Below, piece by piece: positions 11,609 to 43,871 of a stretch of 64,000 nt of DNA. The position numbers and the translations under genes were made by a program. The notes under the pieces are model-generated. The model made no database searches, was not told the DNA's origin, and saw nothing but the letters and a program-made list of their open reading frames with translations. The stretch comes from Novakomyces olei. Its lineage: Eukaryota; Ascomycota; Novakomycetes; Novakomycetales; Novakomycetaceae. Position 1 is the first letter of the stretch; every line of letters starts with the position of its first letter. The stretch is from positions 124,001 to 188,000 of the forward strand of contig JADEYG010000002.1 in NCBI GenBank assembly GCA_016906335.1, in the 5' to 3' direction.

Positions 11609-11610
<2 letters not shown>

Positions 11611-11697
<87 letters not shown>
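11611..11697. repeat. AAT trinucleotide microsatellite
   Basis: About 29 copies of AAT lie in the 284-bp divergent gap between the exportin gene and the Vma22-like gene, ending 25 bp before the latter's start codon. Confidence 0.95.
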
Positions 11698-12539: not shown

Positions 12540-14751
12540 CTAATCCTCCTTTTTGTCCGCATCAGTGATTTTCCGAATATGGTCTAACATGTTTCGGCCT
12601 TGTTTGATTGCCTCTTTAACACTGGCTGAAGGGGCCACGAGTTTAGCATCGGCAAAAGGCTGCAGAGCTATGGCATCAGAAGTCGCAAGCTTGTCAGCAA
12701 TTTTGGAGCCGTAACCGAACCTTTTCAGCACGTCACGCAAATGGTGACTGCGCAAACGGTAGTCCTCACGTTTGGCTAAGAGCACACTGTTTTGTGGTAA
12801 ACGCTCACAGAATTGCTGAACAGCGTACCTCGCAATAAAAAACAAATGCTCCGACACAAGCGTGATTGCGATTACTTTGGCTAAACTGAAGTTTGTGGGG
12901 TCCCGGCTACCTCCATACAAGTAAATAAGTGCAGAGGAAGTAAGACTTGAGATCCAAACAAGGAGCGAAAGCGTTTCAAGCCAAGGGCCAATTGTCTCTG
13001 TACGTGAAGGTATTGGCCTCCGCACGTTCCCACAAATTGTGGCTGCGTCTCCACGCAACTCAATCGCGTTATGAATCAAATCAATGACTGGAGTTAAGGG
13101 CCATATTACGGAAAACATGACGAGATAACCAAATTGCACAACCATTTGCGCATAATCACCATACGTATTATACGTTTCGAGGCCAGCTTCACGTCTAATC
13201 TTCTTCATAAGCTCTGTTTCTTCCGGAGGATCGGGATACCGCGTTTCGGCCTCTTTTTGTATTTTTTGTTTCAGTTTTTTGGCCTCGGAAAACAAGATTG
13301 ATTGTGCATACGGCATCAAAAGTTTGGTAGCGAAAGCAATGACCTGCGCCGTAACAACGAAGTAAAATAATTGGTTAGAAACGCGACTCGGATTTGCTTT
13401 AAAGGTATGCAGAGGTCTTTTTTCCGACTCTGAGGATGAAAAGGCAGCTAGACCCAGAAGATCGATCTTGGGCATTATTAAATGGCCAAATGGCGTATAG
13501 ACAAAAGCAGCCAAGAACAGTGAAGCAAAAGAGGTTAGAAAATTGACAACAAAAATCTTTCTCGTATAAGAGTTGCTGTAGCTGCCATCTGTTTCATGAT
13601 TTTCGTAAAGCGTCAGGCTCTCACTAATGTGGGAATAGTATTTTGAGAATAGTGGAACGAAAATTGTGAAGAGAATTGTGGGCGAGAATGTCAAGATGCT
13701 CTTTAGCGGGCCCGCGTATACCTTAAAATTAGCATGACGATAATGAAGAAAAAGCTCAAGAAGCACAATTATTGTTGCATTTTCTTACCTCTGAAATATA
13801 GACCTCTACAGAGAAAATAAAAGTCAAAATCCCACCGAGGATCAAAAGACCGGAAAGCGCGAGTGGAAGACTGACGAATTCACGCACTGTACGCTTCCAT
13901 CCCGGAAAAACAGGCTTGATTTCGGTAGTCACAGGATCCGGGGCCTGATATTCGCCCTTGAACAAAGCTCGCCGGGTCTCGATCCGTGAACAGTGGCGTA
14001 CGCCCCAGCGAACGGCCAAATCCAATTCCTTTCTGCGCCAAAGCTCGATGAAAAACAGACCCCAAATAGAAATAAAGATGGAATAAAAAGCGGAATAACT
14101 GCCGCGCAGGAAATACGTAGCAATTCCGACTCCAGCAGGGTAGACAAGGGACCGGAAATAAAATCGAAGAAAAGCGAAATAGAGTGCAACTCTTTCACCA
14201 AAATAATCCCTAATTTCGTCCAAATCAGCATTGTCAACAAACGGCTTTGAGCTCCATTTCTGCAGCCAAGCGTGGTTGAAGTCGTCGTCGTGCAGAGGAA
14301 ATATTGAGGCCACAAAGGCCCAAGGATCATGGCCAGCAACAATACCAGCTCCGCCTTGATTCTTGGGGGCAGAAATAATCTCGTAAATGTACCGCAGTCT
14401 CTCAGCGGGGGACAGATTTGTGTCGGGCAGCACTTCACTGTTACCAGATTCTACAGACTGATCAGATCCATCAGCAGCGATGGGTATAATTTCTGCCTCA
14501 GCGGCTGTCGCTTTGATCCCATACAAATAGTCTTTTTCCCGAGCCGTCATTATAGCACTCGTGAGCCGGTCCGGTGGGCAATACACTAGTATGCCCAAAG
14601 ACACATCGTCCAAAACGCGTACTGAGCATTTGAGACCTGCATCGTAAAGCGTCTGCATAAGCAAATCTAATTGATCATCTTTGCCTTTGAACACAATCAC
14701 GTAATCAGTAACAAACTTGTGCAATCCGCTGCTTCTGCCGCCCTCCGCCAT
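12540..14751 (-). CDS. IST2: Anoctamin/TMEM16-family membrane protein (Ist2 type)
   Basis: Exons are 14751-13789 and 13721-12540 (714 aa). TMEM16 proteins are lipid scramblases or ion channels; fungal Ist2 tethers ER to plasma membrane. Residues 1-130 form a soluble domain (TDYVIVFKGKDDQ, LGILVYCPPDRL). The anoctamin channel follows: IRDYFGERVALYFAFLRFY, FIELWRRKE, SVEVYISE, and later VVQFGYLVMFSVIWPLTP with about ten membrane segments. The intron ends GCTAATTTTAAG. The long basic C-terminal tail with a PIP2-binding end seen in S. cerevisiae Ist2 is missing, so this is closer to the compact filamentous-fungal forms. A telomere-like motif lies 150 bp upstream of the start. Confidence 0.93.
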
Positions 14752-17838: not shown

Positions 17839-17857
17839 CGGAATAAACGCGGAATAA
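17839..17857 (+). promoter_or_regulatory. CGGAATAA operator pair (11-bp spacing) before the MFS gene
   Basis: Two CGGAATAA octamers begin at 17839 and 17850, exactly 11 bp apart in direct orientation and 110-127 bp upstream of the MFS start codon. A GATA-type site (CTATCA on this strand) lies at 17772. The same octamer at the same phasing occurs before DUR3/regulator and amidase. A CGG core is typical of Zn2Cys6 binding sites. That the cluster's own regulator binds here is inference. Confidence 0.7.
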
Positions 17858-17965
17858 ATTGGGTATTGCCAACTTTAATTGATGATTGAGCAGATACGCA
17901 GCGTCTATAAAGAAGAATTCCTTCCACATGTCTAAAGAACAGAACCTCCATTGCATGCAAGACCA

Positions 17966-19432
17966 ATGGACTTGCAAGCCAAAGGGCTGTCCAGCTCGGC
18001 GCTCGCGATATCGTCCATACCGCAGCCACCAGAAATCTTGAAAAAAAGCATGTTCAAACGGCCTCGCTTATGTTTGATCAACCGTAGAGCCGATTCCCAT
18101 ACGTACTCGACGCTTGTAAAAAGCCTTATCGTCTTACAAGTCGGCCTATCTGCAATGATGGCCCCCTTTGGTGGCAGTGTGATTCTGCCTGCTGCCGATA
18201 ATGTCGCAAAGTCACTGCACTGCTCGAAGGCTGCTATAAGTATCTCCTACGGCATATACATATTGTCCCTTGGAGTATTCCCGTTATGGTGGTCATCGGC
18301 CTCAGAGCTGTTTGGGAGAAGGATTGTTTATCTTTTGTCTTTTACTATTTACACTGGATTTTCTGTAGCTTGTGCTTTGTCCCAAACAATGGGCCAACTG
18401 ACGGGGTTTCGATTGTGTGCGGGTGGAGCAGCAGCGTCTGTTCAGGCTGTTGGCGCTGGTACAATAAGCGATATCTTTATGCGTGAACAACGAGGCCGCG
18501 CTTTGGGTTATTTTTACCTTGGTCCTCTACTCGGTGCTCTGCTGTCTCCGATATGTGGAGGCATTTTAACGCAGGCTTTTGGCTGGAGATCAACGCAATG
18601 GCTGCTTGTAATCATGGGGGGCTCGCTTTTAATATTCATGGCTCTATTGCTACCGGAAACACTGGCCATGACAGATTTACAAGAGGATCAAAAGCTGCAC
18701 GTTCGTGAAATTATGGAAAGAATCCTTGTCCGGCCTTTGCGAGCATTCAAACTTTTGCGCTTGCCTTCCATTTCGCTCATAATTGCTTGCTCTACTTTTT
18801 GTTATTTCTGCCTGTATTTTTTGACGATATCTATACAGATCACTTATTCTTCCAGCCCGTATGAGTTCAGGCCCTTGATTGTCGGATTGCTATTTATCCC
18901 GAATTCCATTGGCTATGTGATTTCGTCTATTTTGAATGGAATGTATAGCGATTATTTGATCAAGAAAAGGCAGAATAATACTGCAGATTCTCCGGAAAGG
19001 CTGGAAAAATCGCAGCAAGTCAGTGCTCCAGAAGACAGACTCTCGCTTCTTTTTCTTGTTTCTTGCATCGCCTATCCTCTTTCATTGGCTTACTTTGGAT
19101 GGACGGCAAATAAGGGTCTCTTGTGGATTGTTCCTTTGGTCGGAACATTTATTTTTGGTCTTTTTTCCATGGTTATCTTTGGCACTACTATGACGTATTT
19201 AGTCGATATTCTTCCCGGCTCTTCATCTTCAGGTGTCGCCCTAAACAATTTTTTTCGTATGGCATTTGCGGGAATTTCAATTTTTATTGCTAATCCAGCA
19301 ATTGACGCCATCGGTTCGGGTTGGATGTTTACAATATTAGCGGTAGTCGGATTGTGTCTAGTGCCAATTCCGATCATATTAAAGCTAAAGGCACGCACTT
19401 GGCGAAAGATTATACCTTTGAACACCGCTTGA
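17966..19432 (+). CDS. MFS transporter, DHA1 drug:H+ antiporter type
   Basis: A single exon of 488 aa with twelve predicted membrane segments. Motif A-like SASELFGRRIVYLLSF lies between segments 2 and 3, and the family-typical GAGTISDIFMREQRGRALGYFYLGPLLG follows in the first half. A central loop at about residues 325-350 is short and charged. Closest by eye to the Qdr/Dtr branch of DHA1, whose substrates include polyamines, quinidine and other small molecules. The start is the first ATG in frame. Position beside a urea transporter and an amidase, with the same operator octamer, suggests it moves a nitrogenous substrate or product. That is inference; the substrate cannot be read from the sequence. 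Confidence 0.88.
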   Translation: MDLQAKGLSSSALAISSIPQPPEILKKSMFKRPRLCLINRRADSHTYSTLVKSLIVLQVGLSAMMAPFGGSVILPAADNVAKSLHCSKAAISISYGIYILSLGVFPLWWSSASELFGRRIVYLLSFTIYTGFSVACALSQTMGQLTGFRLCAGGAAASVQAVGAGTISDIFMREQRGRALGYFYLGPLLGALLSPICGGILTQAFGWRSTQWLLVIMGGSLLIFMALLLPETLAMTDLQEDQKLHVREIMERILVRPLRAFKLLRLPSISLIIACSTFCYFCLYFLTISIQITYSSSPYEFRPLIVGLLFIPNSIGYVISSILNGMYSDYLIKKRQNNTADSPERLEKSQQVSAPEDRLSLLFLVSCIAYPLSLAYFGWTANKGLLWIVPLVGTFIFGLFSMVIFGTTMTYLVDILPGSSSSGVALNNFFRMAFAGISIFIANPAIDAIGSGWMFTILAVVGLCLVPIPIILKLKARTWRKIIPLNTA

Positions 19433-19920
19433 AGATCCTTTTGAATTTTGGCAAAATAGGGGATTCAGGTGGGAGTGAACAAAACAAGGAACGAAACAGA
19501 GCTAATTGGGGAATGAACAATTTTTATTAGAAACAAAGTAAAGATTTGAAAACAAAAAATAATTTGGTGATATCAACTTTGTGGTTGTTTGAAATGCATC
19601 AATGTAGATAGATATATTTTGTCAAGGCGCCGATTTAGATTTTAATAAAAGGTACGGTATTAGCCAATTGTGGTTACTTTACAATCACTTGGAAAATTAC
19701 CAATTATTTCTGGCTTCCATGAAACGAACTGAACATTAATATACGCGCAGCAAAAGCAGTAGCCTGCAAATGTCTGTAGATTTTATTTTATTTTATTTTA
19801 AGGTTATTATGAAAAGAACACTAGGCTTGCTTCTAATCCTATGATGGAACTAATGTTATGAAATAATGACCTTTAATGAATATTATCGAAAAACGAAATA
19901 TTAACTATTTAATACTATGC
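19433..19920. other. Convergent intergenic gap, no gene seen
   Basis: 3' flanks of the MFS and DUR3 genes. It contains short TTTTA runs (19783-19802) but no coding sequence or RNA I can support. Confidence 0.6.
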
Positions 19921-21921
19921 CTAATCTACCATCCTTTTGCTCTCGGTAATATCCGATTTCAAATTTACGGAAGAAACCCGCTCAGGAGCTTCCGAGCCGA
20001 CGACCATTTTTGGGACTTTGCCTGTGGCAATATATCGACAGACCTGCACGATCGAAGACCAGCTCTCGTATATAGGAAAAACAATAATGTAGATTGTCAC
20101 CAAAATGAGCCAAACGAAAATGATAACAATCCACGCGGTGAACATGGGTTTCGAGCACGTCCATTTCGAACCGTAAATGGGCATGGGCAAGATAATCATA
20201 GTCACAAGGAGATAGGAAACGGCAATCCATCGGCCCCAAACAACGGTGCTCTTGAGCCGTTTGTACTCTTTACCATAAACATCTATTTCCATAGCAGCAA
20301 GTTCTTCTGCCGTAGCATCATTGGCAGCAGTAAACTTGTGTATTAAAGCAGCCTCCTCCAAATGGCCCGGTCGAAACAACGACAATACAAGAGCGTAAAT
20401 TGGGCCAGACAGTAGGGCAACAAAATTTGCAGTCAGTGTGGCATTCGGATTGACTAGTGTGTGCACATTTAGAGACCCATCGGGAGAGAAGTGGTAGGCA
20501 GATCCAATCCAAACTGCCACCCCAGTAGCCGTTCCCAACGGAGCACCAATCACGAGACCCCATTTGTTCATGCGCCGCCAAAAAACAGTCATTACAAGAA
20601 CCGGGACAGAAGGCGCCAAGATAATGCCTTTAAAAGAAATAATCCAGCCGACATTTACCCCCACATAGTTAAACCAGGTGGCAAACGAGCCCATAATGGC
20701 GCCAAAAGCAATAACACAGAAATGCGAGACCCAAACCAGCGTCTTCCCGGAAGCCATTTTATCGTAGTATTCCCGGTACAAATCATATGTACAAATAGAC
20801 GAGAAGGCCACCAGTTCTGCCGACATGGCTGAAGTTACAGACATAAAGAGCATTACAAGTGCTGCTGCGGCCCCGCTTGTGCCAAACATGGCCGCCATGC
20901 CATAGAATAAAGGCATGCCGGCAGCTGCTTGACCCGGAGTCAATACGTGCGGGTAGCTAAAGAGAACCGGGTTGTTCAAAAGAGCACGGGTGGCAAGACC
21001 AGCAGAGCTGCCCAGGGACCAGGGAATTATGAACCAGCAAACACCGCCCAGCAAATAACCCTTAAACACTCCATGAGCAGAGGCAGAAATAGCCTTTTGT
21101 CCATAGCTCGGGTCACCAAAGACGGTCACAAAGCCACCAATAAGAGCAGACCAGGCAGTTTTAACTACAGCGGAATTGCTCATGGTCAAGTAGCTGCCTC
21201 CATGTCCAGAACTTGGGTGCAGGGCGGCCGCCTGCTCCAATAAATCATACATTCGGGCCGGTGAGCCGATACTGTTTGAAGTTGTGTACACGGCAAACAT
21301 TGTGCACAGGATAATAATGTAAATAATGACAGTATGGATCCAGTCGGAGATAAAAGTAGCCTTTATGCCACCAAACACAGTGTAAAAAGTTACGCCAACA
21401 GGGAGCAAAAGGCACCCGGCCACAACGTGCATCCCGGTGGCATTGGCAAAGCCCTGGGCACCGCCTAGCAACAGAGTAGCCGCCACCATAATATTAACGG
21501 CGAGACAGTAGCAGAGGTAGACAATGTGGCCGGCTCTGCCAAAGCGAGCGCGGACAATTTCGGCCACTGTATGAGCGCCAGGCGCGACTAGCTTCATCTC
21601 AACAGCCAAACAGGCAAAGCAGACAACTTGGACCGATCCGATCATAGCGTACCAGTAAACACCAGCAACTCCGTATGTATAGCTCCAATTTCCAGACAGC
21701 AAAAAGGTCGCTGGCCACGCCCAACTGGAAACAACCGCGGACGAAATCAAACCTGTTTTGACTGATCGAGAAGCAGTTGTAAACTGCTCCGAGTCTTGTA
21801 CTTCGCCAGTATAGCGCTTGAGAATCCACGTTATCCCGACCATCATTAGGGCAAAAGCACCTCCCAGCGCCAGTGCAAACGTATACCCATAGACTTGGCC
21901 CAGGATGTAAGCTTGAGGCAT
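19921..21921 (-). CDS. DUR3: DUR3-type urea/polyamine:H+ symporter (SSS family)
   Basis: A single exon of 666 aa. Dur3 imports urea (and polyamines) at the plasma membrane and is induced under nitrogen limitation. The N-terminus YGYTFALALGGAFALMMVG and the run EQFTTASRSVKTGLISSAVVSSWAWPATFLLS are hallmark Dur3 blocks. FGGIKATFISDWIHTVIIY and VFGDPSYGQKAISA follow, as does LFMSVTSAMSAELVAFSSI. About 15 membrane segments and the length match the family. The start is the first ATG of the conserved N-terminus. The gene is divergent from the Zn2Cys6 regulator and shares a 437-bp promoter with four operator octamers and GATA sites. Confidence 0.95.
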   Translation of the reverse strand: MPQAYILGQVYGYTFALALGGAFALMMVGITWILKRYTGEVQDSEQFTTASRSVKTGLISSAVVSSWAWPATFLLSGNWSYTYGVAGVYWYAMIGSVQVVCFACLAVEMKLVAPGAHTVAEIVRARFGRAGHIVYLCYCLAVNIMVAATLLLGGAQGFANATGMHVVAGCLLLPVGVTFYTVFGGIKATFISDWIHTVIIYIIILCTMFAVYTTSNSIGSPARMYDLLEQAAALHPSSGHGGSYLTMSNSAVVKTAWSALIGGFVTVFGDPSYGQKAISASAHGVFKGYLLGGVCWFIIPWSLGSSAGLATRALLNNPVLFSYPHVLTPGQAAAGMPLFYGMAAMFGTSGAAAALVMLFMSVTSAMSAELVAFSSICTYDLYREYYDKMASGKTLVWVSHFCVIAFGAIMGSFATWFNYVGVNVGWIISFKGIILAPSVPVLVMTVFWRRMNKWGLVIGAPLGTATGVAVWIGSAYHFSPDGSLNVHTLVNPNATLTANFVALLSGPIYALVLSLFRPGHLEEAALIHKFTAANDATAEELAAMEIDVYGKEYKRLKSTVVWGRWIAVSYLLVTMIILPMPIYGSKWTCSKPMFTAWIVIIFVWLILVTIYIIVFPIYESWSSIVQVCRYIATGKVPKMVVGSEAPERVSSVNLKSDITESKRMVD

Positions 21922-22177
21922 GGCGAAAAGACGTAGACGCTTTTATTTTATTTTATTTTATTTAATTGTTTTTTCGCAATTAATCGGTCAGTCTGCTGGT
22001 CTGCAAAGAAGCAGCCTGAATAGTCGCAGCCGAGCTTTTGTCCATCGAGAGCAGTCAGAGGTCTATATACCCGACGAAACTGTCTTTTGGCTGATACAGC
22101 GGCCAGAACGATCGTTTTACGTTTTCTGTTTTCGAGGTTTTTTTCTTTTAGGATTTTTACGTTCTTTCCCCATAGGG

Positions 22178-22220
22178 CTTATCTTATTGCGCATACCTGT
22201 CAAAAGTCGTCGCCGATAAG
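22178..22220. promoter_or_regulatory. GATA-factor sites in the DUR3/regulator promoter
   Basis: CTTATC at 22178-22183 and GATAAG at 22215-22220 match the HGATAR core bound by fungal nitrogen regulators (AreA, Gln3). A further TGATAAG lies at about 22281. They sit between and beside the operator octamers. Function is inferred from motif and gene content. Confidence 0.6.
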
Positions 22221-22223
22221 AGA

Positions 22224-22264
22224 CGGAATAATCACGGAATAATCGCGGAATAATCACGGAATAT
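22224..22264 (+). promoter_or_regulatory. Four-copy CGGAATAA operator array, 11-bp steps
   Basis: Direct repeats of CGGAATAA begin at 22224, 22235, 22246 and 22257 (the last ends in AT). Each step is exactly 11 bp, so all lie on one face of the helix. The array is 95-135 bp from the regulator start codon and about 300 bp from the DUR3 start. It is the richest of three such sites in the cluster and could serve both divergent genes, including autoregulation. Confidence 0.78.
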
Positions 22265-22358
22265 ATACAGTTTGCAGAGTTGATAAGGGTGTTGGACGGT
22301 TCGCGCGACTAAACTCTTGAATTGCTTCGCTTGCAATTGGGATTTTCCGCTGGTGCGA

Positions 22359-24548
22359 ATGCCGCGAAGCACAAGCGACTCTGAGCCGGGTTCGTTGACA
22401 AAATTTCCAAAACGGTCGGGGAAAGCATGTGAAAACTGCAGGCGACGAAGAATCAAGGTGTGCCTATTGCTTTTGTGCCTATTTCTTTTGTGCTCATTAC
22501 TTTGTGCCTATTACTTTTGCATTGCCTATTGCTGACTTGGATGTAGTGCTCGGGAGGCGGACAGGTGTGTTGTAATTGCCTCAAGCTTAATATCCGCTGT
22601 ACTTATCGTCCGTCTTACAGAGCGAAAAGCGGCAATGGCTCACGGCTGCGTTCAAGGTACATTCTGGTATATGAGTTTGCTTTCTGACGGCTTTTAAGTT
22701 CGGAATCAGCAGACGATTTGGCGCAGCCGATCAATGCGCACCGCAATAGTAGCGTAGGCAGTGATGACGCATCGAAATCGCCATATTATGGTATGGAACA
22801 TGAGCAATTGCACATACCGTTTCCGTTTCTTATTCTCCTATTCAGAGTATTGCTCGCGTGTGACCTCTTTCCTTGACCCCCAACTTTGCGTACTTTATTC
22901 TTCTTATTTTCATGGCGCACTAATGGTATTAGGCCCGTCTAGCCATCGCTATTTCTTGTCAAAGCTATACTCTTACATGAACGCACGCAACCCTCAGAGT
23001 AACGCGTTCAAAAAGTTCCTCTCGCAGCCCAATCCTGAAACGAGCACTACAACCCAGAATGAAAATTATATGGCTAGCATCGAGCTTGATGAGCTAGAGA
23101 TGCTCCAGGTCCTGAAAAACTCGTTTCAAGGCTTTGATTTGATTATAGCTTTGGTGGACCAAGAACAGTATGAAGCAACTGCATCACGGTTGTGGCAAAC
23201 AAAATCACAGATTGCCGATGGGAAAAAGAGCTCGGAACTCTCGCTTTTATTTGCCATGATATGCCTTGGGTTAAGTATGAACTGTTGCCAGTCATTTATA
23301 AGGGAAATTCATCGCAGCGTTTGGCTCTCCGTGTACATGAAGCGGGCACAAACCCGGCTGCCTTCGATGCTTGATACTTTTGATGTGACTACGGTCCAGG
23401 CGTACATTTTATGCAGCATTCTTCTTATTTTTCAGGCACACAATGACTCTGCTTACTTGTACGTGGGCTGTGCTGTGAGAATGGCAATTGCTCTGGGATT
23501 TCATAGTATAAACGTGCACAAAACTGAAATTGCGCAAATTCAGGCTGCTGGCCATAGGACCTGGGTGGCGTGCTGTGTCTGGGAAAACATGATCTCTATA
23601 ATCATGGGCCGACCGAGCATTAGCGCCAAAATTGCAATGGCTCCTTTTGTTGGCGACGCGTTCGAGCAAGTTGGTCTATCTGCGGGGCACGTACGTGTGC
23701 GGTACTTGTACGTGACAAAAATCGTAGATCGAATAAACTCTATATACAATGACGCCGAGGGCCAGAGTGATTTGGTGCACGTGTACACATCCGTTTGTAA
23801 TGTTGCGCAAGATATGGAAGCCATACTTGACGAGGCTCCATTGCATTTACGGATTAAAGACGTCAACGAGTTGGCCACGGTTAATGACGAACAATGCCGA
23901 GAATGGTTTTGGATACGGCTACTCTACCTTCAAATCAAGCTGATCATGCTTCGGCCTTTTCTTGTGTTTTCTATGTATTTCAATGGCAAGAGCGACGATC
24001 AGCTAGATCCGCAAGTTCAGAATCTGATAAGAATTGGCCGTGAAGAGTGCCTGGAGACGGCTATATCGATTCCTAAGCTTTTGAGAATGGTGGCACATAG
24101 AATTGCACAATTCCAGCATCACTGGTTTGCCTGCAGATATGTGGAGCCGGCAGCCATGATTTTGTTTTTCTACATTTTGACAAGCCCGGCAAGCATATCG
24201 GACGCTCTTGCTTTTCGGATTAGCTCTGCTCTCACCGACGCGTGCTCGTACATCGGTGTTGAAGCCGACGCAGTCCCTGTCGTTGCCCAGTCAAAGACTG
24301 TTGTTACAGACGCATTAAATTCTCTGCAAAGTTTGAGGGAAACGCAACTGTCCTTTGATGATTCCTACCTGCGATCTTTCTTTGCTACAGCTTCGACTGA
24401 AAGCGCCGGGCAAGACGCTTCCCTACGATTTTCAAATGAAGAACCCTTGAGAAACGATGGCATCAATGTCCATTTGGACACAGAAATCTGGGACACGGAG
24501 AGTTTTTGGCTGCAGACTTTGAGTATTCTGGGGTTCAATCAGGCCTGA
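22359..24548 (+). CDS. Zn2Cys6 binuclear-cluster transcription factor
   Basis: Exons are 22359-22457, 22547-22656, 22699-22790 and 22933-24548 (638 aa). The DNA-binding domain spans the first intron: C24-x2-C27-x6-C34 and C41-x2-C44-x6-C51, with the basic loop NCRRRRIK. Exon 4 must be joined from TATTATG to GCCCGTCT (intron end ACTAATGGTATTAG) to give YYGPSSHRYFLSKLY, the usual start of the fungal middle homology region. That region continues through AYILCSILLIFQAH and AVRMAIALGFHSIN. It is a nuclear regulator, probably of the neighbouring DUR3, amidase and MFS genes and of itself, as its own promoter carries four octamers with CGG cores. The first ATG in frame is 22359. Intron 1 holds loosely repeated GTGCCTATT units. 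Confidence 0.92.
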
Positions 24549-24974
24549 TTTAATTTATTCCCTTCTCGAATCTGTTGGTTAGTATTATTTGTTGTGCATA
24601 TTTAGTCTTGTTCTTGGTCGTTTGCGGCCAATAACATTTGTTTAATGATATCGAATCAGTCGGCCTGCTTTCGCTCCTGCTGCACGAGCGCTACAGCCTT
24701 CTCCATAAAAAATCAAATACTTGGATTATGTACAATATGAGCCCGATAGGGTTGGTTCACTATATAACTTATGTAAAGGTGAAAGGTGGGCGTTGTAGGT
24801 TTAAGTGGGATGCAGACAGTGAGTACTCAATGGTCTCGCGATAGCCAATCGAGTTTGTTCCCTTTACCAATGTTCTTCCTTTACCAATGATTATCCAATC
24901 GATTACTGTTTGTGACAAATAGACGTACCGGCAATGTCCATTGCCGGAAAATATAAATTTAATGTTATCACAGA

Positions 24975-25026
24975 TTATTCCGCTGCACTGCCGCGGTTAT
25001 TCCGCGCTTGTGTTTATAGTATTCCG
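24975..25026 (-). promoter_or_regulatory. Three CGGAATAA-type sites before the amidase, 22-bp steps
   Basis: On the minus strand, octamers occupy 24975-24982, 24997-25004 and 25019-25026 (the last as CGGAATAC). The steps are exactly 22 bp, two helical turns, matching the 11-bp phase of the other two promoters. They lie 121-172 bp upstream of the amidase start codon. Confidence 0.75.
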
Positions 25027-25027
25027 C

Positions 25028-25080
25028 GATAAGAAAATGCGATAAGACGCGATAAGACGCGACAAGAAGCGAAAAGACGG
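25028..25080 (+). promoter_or_regulatory. GATAAG array with 10-bp tandem unit
   Basis: GATAAG occurs at 25028, 25041 and 25051. From 25041 a 10-bp unit (GATAAGACGC) repeats and then decays to GACAAGAAGC and GAAAAGACGG. This is a dense set of HGATAR nitrogen-control sites directly between the operator octamers and the amidase gene. The rest of the 24549-25146 gap shows no gene. Confidence 0.72.
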
Positions 25081-25146
25081 AGGCGGCGCTTCTTTGATTG
25101 AAGCGTCAGTATAAATACAGCACTTTGAACACATTGTATTACTGAC

Positions 25147-27002
25147 ATGTCAAGCATGACAAAGCCGTCTTGGGAGCAGATTGCTTTGGGAAAAAGGCAG
25201 GCGCTCTACGAGCGAATCCCTGTGGGATGGCGACTCGACAATGTTCCATCTCCGCAAGATGCGCCCAGTACGGATGCGTACTTGGACTCTATTCTGGCCG
25301 AAAACGAAGTAGCCATAGTGCACTTGTCGGCAAATCAGCTGCTTGAACGAATGGGGACGGGCAGACTAAGCGCGGTCGATGTGTGTAAGGCGTTTTGCCA
25401 CCGCGCGGCTCTTTGCCACCAGCTAGTAAGCCATTCAATTCAAAATAAAAAACTTTTCCAAGCCACAAATGGCTCTGCAAACTACTCTGCCATGCTCTGA
25501 TATGCTCTTATCGCCCAGCCTGACACGCTAGACAAACTGCTTGAGCGAGATATTCTTTGATGACGCTCTCCAGCATGCGGATCAATTGGATCATTATTTC
25601 AGACAGCACGGAGAGATGATGGGGCCGCTTCATGGGCTTCCCATATCTTTGAAGGTAACCCGAAAAAAATAAAAATAAAGCAAAATAAAGCAAATATTTT
25701 GCTAGCCACTAACATTGTCAGGACCAGTTTAACGTTGCGGGTGTAGAGACATCATTGGGAATTGTGGGCCTGTTAGGGAACCCGGTTGCCGTCGAAAACG
25801 AATCGCTTCTCGTTAAAATTATGCGTGAAAATGGTGCAATATTGTTTGTTAAAACAACAGTTCCAATGGCGATGATGTCGGCCGATACATTTTCAAACAT
25901 TCATGGGCATACTGTGGCTTCTTTTAACCGCACATTGTCATCGGGTGGAAGTTCCGGAGGCGAGGCGACACTTGTTGCCTCTCATGGAGCAGTGGCAGGG
26001 TGGGGCACGGATTTGGCAGGAAGCGTGCGTATTCCCTGCACTTTTCAAGGACTTTATGGCCTTCGTCCCAGCACTGGCCGAATTCCATACTGGAATGTTG
26101 CGAATACGAATGAAGGGCAGCCAGTTATGCCCTCCGTTATAGGACCAATTGCTAGATCAATTGATGAAATTGAGCTGTTGATGAAATGCGTTATGGATTC
26201 ACATCCTTGGATGTACGATGCTAAATTGTCTCCATTGAATTGGAAAACTTTGGACCACAACAAGGAACATATTACGTTTGGAGTCTTGCGGTGGAATGGA
26301 ATAGTCATGCCTCATCCCCCGGTGCAGAGAGCAGTCGCCGAATGTGTAAGGGCGCTTGAGACAGCGGGACAAAGCGTCTTGGAGCTGGATCCACCTGACT
26401 TTATTCCTGATATAATCAAATGCGCAGGCGAGCTATTATCGGCCGATCAGATGGAGTGCTTGTTGCGACTTTGTGACCTTACAGAGGAGCCAGTTATTCC
26501 TCAAATACGAAAACTAAAAGCGCATGCAATGGGCAAGAACGCAAAGGATATATCGATAGCAGAATACTGGGAGATGGCGGAACGACGATACCATTTGCAG
26601 CAAAAATTCATTGATTTCTGGAATGACACGGCAGCCAAAACTGCAAGCAAAAGACCAATCGATGTCTTAATTTGCCCTGCTTGGGAGATGACGGCTTTCA
26701 GGCCTGGAGAGGCAGCGGCGACGCGCACAATGTACACAATCTTGCAAAACTTTATGGACTTTTGCGCAATTTCCTGTCCCGTTACTTGTGCTGACAAGAA
26801 CAAAGACTGTCTGTCTATCAATTATACTCCCACAAATGAGCTTGACAAAGCGGTTCAGGAAATGTATGATGCCAGCCAAAGTCATGGGAGCCCTGCTGGC
26901 GTTCAACTGTGCGGCAGAAGGCACCAAGAAGAACTGCTTATTAGCGCCACGCGCGTTCTGGAAAACGCTCTTAATCACAATAATGGGAGCGAAAATGTTT
27001 AG
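25147..27002 (+). CDS. Acetamidase-type amidase (amidase signature family)
   Basis: Exons are 25147-25425, 25532-25654 and 25722-27002 (560 aa). It hydrolyses a carboxamide to acid plus ammonia in the cytosol; fungal relatives (AmdS type) act on acetamide and related amides. The Ser-cisSer-Lys triad is intact: K134 in GLPISLKDQFN, S211 in SSGGSSGGE and S235 in GTDLAGSVRIP. Exon 2 restores the conserved TNCLSEIFFDDAL, and introns end CTGACACGCTAG and CTAACATTGTCAG. It is the last gene of the MFS-DUR3-regulator-amidase cluster and carries the same operator and GATA sites, so amide and urea use are probably co-regulated. The exact substrate is not evident. Confidence 0.94.

Positions 27003-30309: not shown

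Positions 30310-31498
<1,189 letters not shown>

Positions 31499-43783: not shown

Positions 43784-43784
<1 letters not shown>

Positions 43785-43871
<87 letters not shown>
43785..43871. repeat. ATT trinucleotide microsatellite
   Basis: About 29 ATT copies fill half of the 172-bp divergent gap between SQS1 and ATG4, ending 55 bp before the ATG4 start. Confidence 0.97.

Follow-up and report, generated by a model that had tools for sequence, protein, structure and literature searches.

Four adjacent genes and their shared promoter array

The window analysed here, a 64,000-nucleotide stretch of Novakomyces olei DNA (contig JADEYG010000002.1, positions 124,001 to 188,000 of the forward strand), contains a cluster of four adjacent genes coding for an MFS transporter, a DUR3-type symporter, a Zn2Cys6 regulator and an amidase, whose three promoter regions all carry regularly spaced copies of the heptamer CGGAATA. 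The introns and the fungal families Zn2Cys6 and Fungal_trans mark the window as fungal DNA. The genome comprises 14,339,745 bases in 15 contigs, and all genome-wide counts given below cover the whole assembly.

Upstream of the MFS gene, two copies of CGGAATAA at 17839 and 17850 (17839..17857, plus strand) stand one 11-bp step apart, 109–127 bp ahead of the start codon. The DUR3-type and regulator genes diverge, and in the stretch between them CGGAATAA at 22224, 22235 and 22246 is followed by CGGAATAT at 22257, all in 11-bp steps (22224..22264, plus strand) and 95–135 bp ahead of the regulator's own start codon. The amidase start codon is preceded at a distance of 121–172 bp by CGGAATAA at 24975 and 24997 and CGGAATAC at 25019, in 22-bp steps on the minus strand (24975..25026). 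CGGAATA is invariant at all nine positions, the preceding base being G in six and A in three. An earlier sequence-only reading had named the four gene families and had placed one octamer at nine sites, spaced 11 or 22 bp apart within each promoter region. The families are confirmed by the matches described below, a single motif is located in each promoter region, and the steps (11; 11, 11, 11; 22, 22) are those it gave; the octamer itself holds at seven of the nine sites, with 22257 and 25019 (the latter on the minus strand) each agreeing at seven of eight bases. Exact CGGAATAA occurs 12 times in the window versus a mean of 2.64 in shuffled sequences, none of the 100 shuffles reaching 12; five lone copies lie elsewhere in the window (6545, 14091, 39573, 41260 and 56458).

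Genome-wide, CGGAATA is not enriched (1403 occurrences versus 1563 for a reversed control), nor are its pairs in general, CGGAATA-N(0-30)-CGGAATA being found at 11 places versus 12 for the control. Every one of the genome's four 11-bp and two 22-bp pairs lies inside this cluster, the number expected at any single spacing being about 0.07 by arithmetic from the genome heptamer counts, and the remaining five pairs, with steps of 13, 13, 29, 21 and 9 bp, lie outside it. Pairs of the exact octamer at 11 bp number three, all in the cluster, versus none for the control. On these counts, a chance origin of the array was set aside, and phased pairs proved not to be common in unrelated promoters. These results support an operator-like array of a CGG-type site that is shared by all three promoter regions of the cluster and confined to it. 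A wider regulon was not apparent, since pairs allowing up to three mismatches showed no genome-wide excess (187 versus 213 for the control). The next best place, with one mismatch (C5:282446; locus L052, 3947-3965), adjoins a frame that by eye resembles acyl-CoA dehydrogenase and not a nitrogen gene, and was rejected as a further target.

The recurrence of spaced 7-mers was also scanned in 209.5 kb, consisting of the window and 19 loci, several of them picked for CGGAATA pairs or paralogues and the sample therefore non-random. The scan was restricted to 7-mers with at least three G/C and to spacings of 8–30, the unrestricted version being swamped by AT repeats. Among 658 7-mer/spacing combinations having at least one pair, 16 were seen again at a second separate place and none at three or more; CGGAATA recurs in two places at 11 bp and in two at 22 bp. 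A three-unit tandem with a 13-bp step that contains CGGAATA was seen in L054 (3936-3968; G000:C2:1248435-1248467), its spacing being unrelated to that of the cluster arrays. One single CGGAATA, at position 4253 of L040, stands about 300 bp upstream of the plausible start of another DUR3-type gene (C3:867k); no weight was given to it, with 19 loci inspected and a genome average of one per 10 kb.

GATAAG is the core site of GATA factors. In the DUR3/regulator promoter it is found at 22178..22183 on the minus strand and, on the plus strand, at 22215..22220, three bases ahead of the first CGGAATAA of the array, and at 22282..22287. The amidase promoter holds three within 29 bases (25028, 25041 and 25051; 25028..25056, plus strand), the first lying one base from the nearest CGGAATA. 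With a background of 0.65 per kb, 0.29 and 0.39 sites, respectively, would be expected, corresponding to uncorrected Poisson P values of 0.003 and 0.007; the MFS promoter has none. Within the window, GATAAG triplets spanning at most 120 bp occur at the two cluster promoters only, and in the 209.5 kb, many of whose fetched loci had been selected for DUR3 or amidase paralogues, they are joined by two overlapping triplets upstream of the C3:867k gene. Ten matches to the GATA finger were found in the genome. These site clusters, a feature absent from the sequence-only reading, fit nitrogen control of the adjoining genes. A usual fungal layout combines a pathway-specific factor with a nitrogen GATA factor, and this would be the likely logic here, because the GATAAG triplets accompany the DUR3/regulator and amidase arrays and not the MFS array.

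The longest open reading frame of the regulator (22764-24548) has no zinc cluster, which would imply a protein devoid of a DNA-binding domain; this was rejected after splicing, as the domain emerges once three introns are removed (22458-22546, 22657-22698 and 22791-22932). The splice sites, GT...AG with branch-like CTGAC or CTAAT, were placed by hand on the sequence without RNA support. On the plus strand, exon 1 (22359..22457) encodes the first two zinc-cluster cysteines and exon 2 (22547..22656) the final four, followed by exon 3 (22699..22790) and exon 4 (22933..24548), which rests on an open reading frame and one hand-placed splice site and contains the Fungal_trans domain. The predicted protein of 638 residues carries the zinc cluster CENCRRRRIKCSGGGQVCCNCLKLNIRC, with the spacing C-x2-C-x6-C-x6-C-x2-C-x6-C, together with a middle homology domain (Pfam Zn_clus, 29 bits with a cut-off of 21; Fungal_trans, 46 bits with a cut-off of 23), which supports an intact coding capacity of the spliced gene. 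No close paralogue was found in a genome search, the six further matches being short and weak (best E value, 4.5e-5).

The MFS gene (17966..19432, plus strand; open reading frame, Pfam MFS_1 131.7 bits) encodes 488 residues of the DHA1/Qdr, drug:H+ antiporter-like type. Among solved structures it comes closest to quinidine resistance protein 2 (2.9e-20), and its top NCBIfam match, Bcr/CflA, falls under that family's cut-off. Outside the cluster, the window also holds an anoctamin/TMEM16-type gene in two open reading frames (12540-14751), probably split through an intron, and long AAT/ATT trinucleotide runs (11609-11680, 30601-30780 and 43784-43855).

Selectivity residues of the symporter and pairing with amidases

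The DUR3-type gene (19921..21921, minus strand) is an open reading frame for a 666-residue symporter of the sodium:solute family (Pfam SSF), with altered selectivity residues. It belongs to the SSS/DUR3 family by sequence, matching three distinct DUR3 sequences in the PDB, the best being 9vim (402 bits, 4.5e-119, over residues 6-634). According to the available part of PMC4077062, seven residues of the Aspergillus nidulans urea carrier UreA (Y106, A110, N275, A374, Y388, Y437 and S446) are shared by characterised urea carriers and not by three A. nidulans paralogues without significant urea transport. When UreA numbering was transferred by counting along the plant DUR3 alignment, the window symporter was found to keep only three of the seven (Y106, A374 and Y388), the others being replaced (A110G, N275A, Y437I and S446P); it additionally has N279G and also retains W82, W84, T133, T282 and D286. 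In the available parts of PMC4077062 and PMC9783183, the inhibition constant (Ki) for acetamide is 237 μM for wild-type UreA, 51 μM for N279A and 102 μM for Y437F. Urea uptake is reported there to fall below 2% in Y437A and N275I, to 46% in Y437F and to 42% in A110G, and S446L is retained in the endoplasmic reticulum, whereas S446T behaves normally. The cluster transporter looks, from its residues, more like an amide importer than a urea importer.

The same residue pattern is widespread among relatives of the symporter. Among the best 120 of 781 homologues passing an E value of 1e-30, position 437 is L, I or M in 107 and Y in 13. In the first 104 of the list, G stands at position 110 in 96 and at position 279 in 94 (N in six), P stands at position 446 in 97, and N stands at position 275 in none. 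In the tree of these proteins, the window symporter falls inside a group of 90 with a support of 0.997, read as an unrooted grouping; a root placed on the Y437 proteins failed to set these apart as an outgroup, and the rooted reading was dropped.

Other DUR3-type genes of the genome differ in these residues. The paralogue at C15:166k keeps A110, N275, N279, T282 and Y437 and is changed to F388 and G446, while that at C3:867k keeps A110, Y437 and S446 and has Q275 and G279. Thus, the assignment of the cluster's DUR3-type gene as a urea transporter in the sequence-only reading was not borne out, A110, N275, Y437, S446 and N279 being lost in it while the C15 gene keeps most of them. The C3:867k gene, whose promoter is rich in GATAAG, has an M20-family amidohydrolase (74.5 bits) as its neighbour (L040; G000:C3:863000-871500). 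Another DUR3-type gene forms a divergent pair with a gene of the LamB/YcsF family (174 bits), after which comes a urea-carboxylase-like biotin enzyme (L041; G000:C12:1351000-1359000), an arrangement that suggests another nitrogen substrate; no CGGAATA lies between the DUR3-type and LamB/YcsF genes. A fragmentary copy, whose pieces match the window protein at residues 11-102 and 322-450, is found beside a Zn2Cys6 gene (34.3 bits; L044, G000:C3:1689k). A urease is encoded at G000:C1:1226484-1227012, on a different contig from the cluster, and there are several urea-carboxylase-like genes (C12:1356983-1360832, C7:49152-53098 and C13:172-2954), none of which exceeds the family cut-off in an exon-by-exon reading.

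The amidase gene comprises three exons on the plus strand (25147..25425, 25532..25654 and 25722..27002), separated by two introns and encoding a spliced protein of 560 residues with the amidase signature. Its Lys134-Ser211-Ser235 triad is identical in all 120 aligned homologues, which are the best 120 of 2795 and carry, by homology, both acetamidase and fatty acid amide hydrolase names. The top solved structure is 6kvr, a fatty acid amide hydrolase (1.1e-88).

Symporter and amidase genes recur together in other yeasts. Pairing was scored by an identical exact size of the longest contig, which is a proxy for location on one contig. By this measure, 16 of the 120 listed symporters match a listed amidase, compared with a mean of 0.06 and a maximum of one when the sizes were shifted by 1–60 bases, and 11 of the 78 listed symporters on contigs of 80,344 bases or less are paired. 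On a contig of 4818 bases the two genes must be neighbours, because together they fill most of it, and in Debaryomyces fabryi they have the consecutive tags AC631_03816 and AC631_03817; four pairs sit on chromosome-sized contigs ([Candida] anglica, Kuraishia, Pachysolen and Schizosaccharomyces pombe) and are weak evidence of closeness. Divided by residue 437 among the listed symporters, none of the 13 Y437 proteins and 16 of the 107 others are paired. In a midpoint-rooted tree of 121 amidases, all 20 paired amidases fall within the 88-member group of the window amidase (support, 0.829), although its two closest relatives among the listed matches, P0123 and P0128, are unpaired. The novelty of the cluster, as first proposed, must accordingly be narrowed: the transporter-amidase pairing recurs in other yeasts, while the pair with this regulator and operator was not found elsewhere, in a comparison that covered protein matches and literature and not the DNA of relatives. 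The literature covered, with subscription papers mostly outside its scope, gave no description of the symporter-amidase pair or of this operator.

A putative amide-scavenging module and its alternatives

We give about even credence to the reading that the four genes form a nitrogen-scavenging cluster for a small amide, namely an import-and-hydrolysis module under a private Zn2Cys6 operator and GATA control. The DUR3-type symporter would bring in the amide, the amidase would split it into an acid and ammonium, the latter to be used, and export of the acid or of some other by-product may fall to the Qdr-like MFS protein. Presumably, tandem RCGGAATA half-sites, spaced by one or two helical turns, are recognised by the in-cluster Zn2Cys6 factor upstream of each of the four genes, that of the factor among them; the phasing of the half-sites would matter, and the genes would be induced in the presence of the substrate. 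A GATA factor acting at the adjoining GATAAG clusters would additionally tie the symporter, regulator and amidase to nitrogen shortage, repression being presumed as well as induction, and the MFS promoter, having the array without GATA sites, would fit a part needed whenever the pathway runs.

Several points weigh against this reading. In the same parts of PMC4077062 and PMC9783183, the acetamide Ki rises in UreA A110G (495 μM) and N275Q (352 μM), that is, affinity is lowered; N279A still takes up urea at 100%; and the acetamide evidence concerns binding to UreA, not transport. The mutant record is mixed: N279 and Y437 speak for amide affinity, which A110 and N275 fail to do, and urea uptake is lost in the non-conservative mutants of Y437 and N275. 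The pairing is scored by a proxy, and 104 of the 120 listed symporters have no partner among the best 120 of 2795 amidases. The MFS promoter lacks GATAAG, and the P values for the other two promoters are uncorrected. The regulator has only one, weak, relative in the protein database (20% identity), which gives no support for conservation of the regulator-operator pair.

There is a minor but real chance that the module serves some other nitrogen compound, be it a ureido compound, polyamines or amides of fatty acids. Polyamines are transported by yeast Dur3 and by Candida Dur31, the amidase's best solved match and an S. pombe relative (Fah1) are both named fatty acid amide hydrolases, and the LamB/YcsF and M20 amidohydrolase neighbours of the further DUR3-type genes indicate that the family may carry several substrates. 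These names are, however, homology-based, with acetamidase-named proteins standing in the same match list, and the two UreA mutants in which affinity is raised act on acetamide.

That a true urea importer and an amidase stand side by side, with urea and amide nitrogen placed under one regulator, is unlikely. The symporter does match plant DUR3 structures from end to end (402 bits) and retains W82, W84, Y106, T133, T282, D286, A374 and Y388, its database relatives are named urea active transporters, the genome has a urease, and UreA N279A carries urea fully. Nevertheless, A110, N275, Y437 and S446 are gone, two of the positions at which UreA substitutions (Y437A and N275I) leave less than 2% of urea uptake being among them; A110, N275, N279, T282 and Y437 are retained instead by the C15 paralogue; and the cluster is without a urea-degrading gene, the urease lying on another contig.

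Binding of the array by a different Zn2Cys6 factor, for example an Rgt1-like protein, in place of the in-cluster one is likewise unlikely. All nine cores fit CGGANNA, the site listed for Rgt1 in the available part of PMC7466126, but a general factor should leave arrays elsewhere, and the genome-wide counts showed no 11- or 22-bp pair outside the cluster and no excess when mismatches were allowed; moreover, one array precedes the in-cluster factor's own gene. It is scarcely credible that the array is a functionless minisatellite by-product, since, although the four near-identical 11-mers at 22224 could come from slippage, the copies ahead of the amidase gene stand in 22-bp steps and have unrelated spacers, the spacer of the MFS copies differs, and the unit is common to three separate promoters of one cluster, with no 11- or 22-bp pair in the rest of the genome.

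Returning to the amide-scavenging reading, we tentatively extend it, with less confidence, to a proposal that the yeast DUR3-type "urea active transporters" without A110, N275, Y437 and S446, and mostly without N279, function as amide permeases and evolved together with the amidases next to them, and that the pair has in this fungus come under the control of a private Zn2Cys6 regulator, which acts on half-sites in a helically phased array. Yeast genomes hold several DUR3-type genes annotated as urea transporters, and the residue rule combined with amidase linkage would allow this clade to be re-annotated and tested as amide permeases. With a genome-unique array, one regulator, and promoters both with and without GATA sites, the cluster may also serve as a compact natural reporter in which substrate induction is separable from nitrogen control.

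Comparison with known systems

Compared with the DUR3/UreA urea-proton symporters (A. nidulans UreA; PDB 9vim and 9j7c), the window symporter shares the fold family over nearly its whole length, the W82/W84 gate, D286 and Y289, but differs in A110G, N275A, N279G, Y437I and S446P, in its amidase neighbour and in belonging to a yeast clade of like proteins. Yeast proteins that are named "urea active transporter 2/3" and stand beside amidases, such as that of the D. fabryi pair, have the same residue pattern and type of neighbour. To our knowledge, no regulator or phased operator has been recognised beside those genes.

In S. pombe, the amidase SPBPB8B6.03 (Fah1) is a relative of the window amidase with 42% identity, and the transcription factor grt1 is SPBPB8B6.04c, the number next to it. 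We take SPBPB8B6.02c to be a DUR3-type gene and grt1 to be a Zn2Cys6 factor. A long table of genes whose expression differs with Mst1, in the available part of PMC2823694, includes all three, which is weak evidence for common control of the trio. PMC9938405, which mentions grt1, was set aside: the subtelomeric genes it deals with are a different set, located on chromosome I, and grt1 figures there only as a modestly lowered transcript.

The A. nidulans hxn regulon, as described in the available parts of PMC5746545 and PMC8478523, is controlled by its own regulator and by the GATA factor AreA, the logic proposed for the window cluster. It serves a different pathway, however, and HxnR is a Cys2/His2 factor, whereas GATA control of the window cluster is suggested by its sites alone. 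The Rgt1 sites of HXT promoters, CGGANNA in the source cited above for Rgt1, describe a consensus that all nine window cores fit, but glucose control operates there, whereas here a phased array is confined to one cluster.

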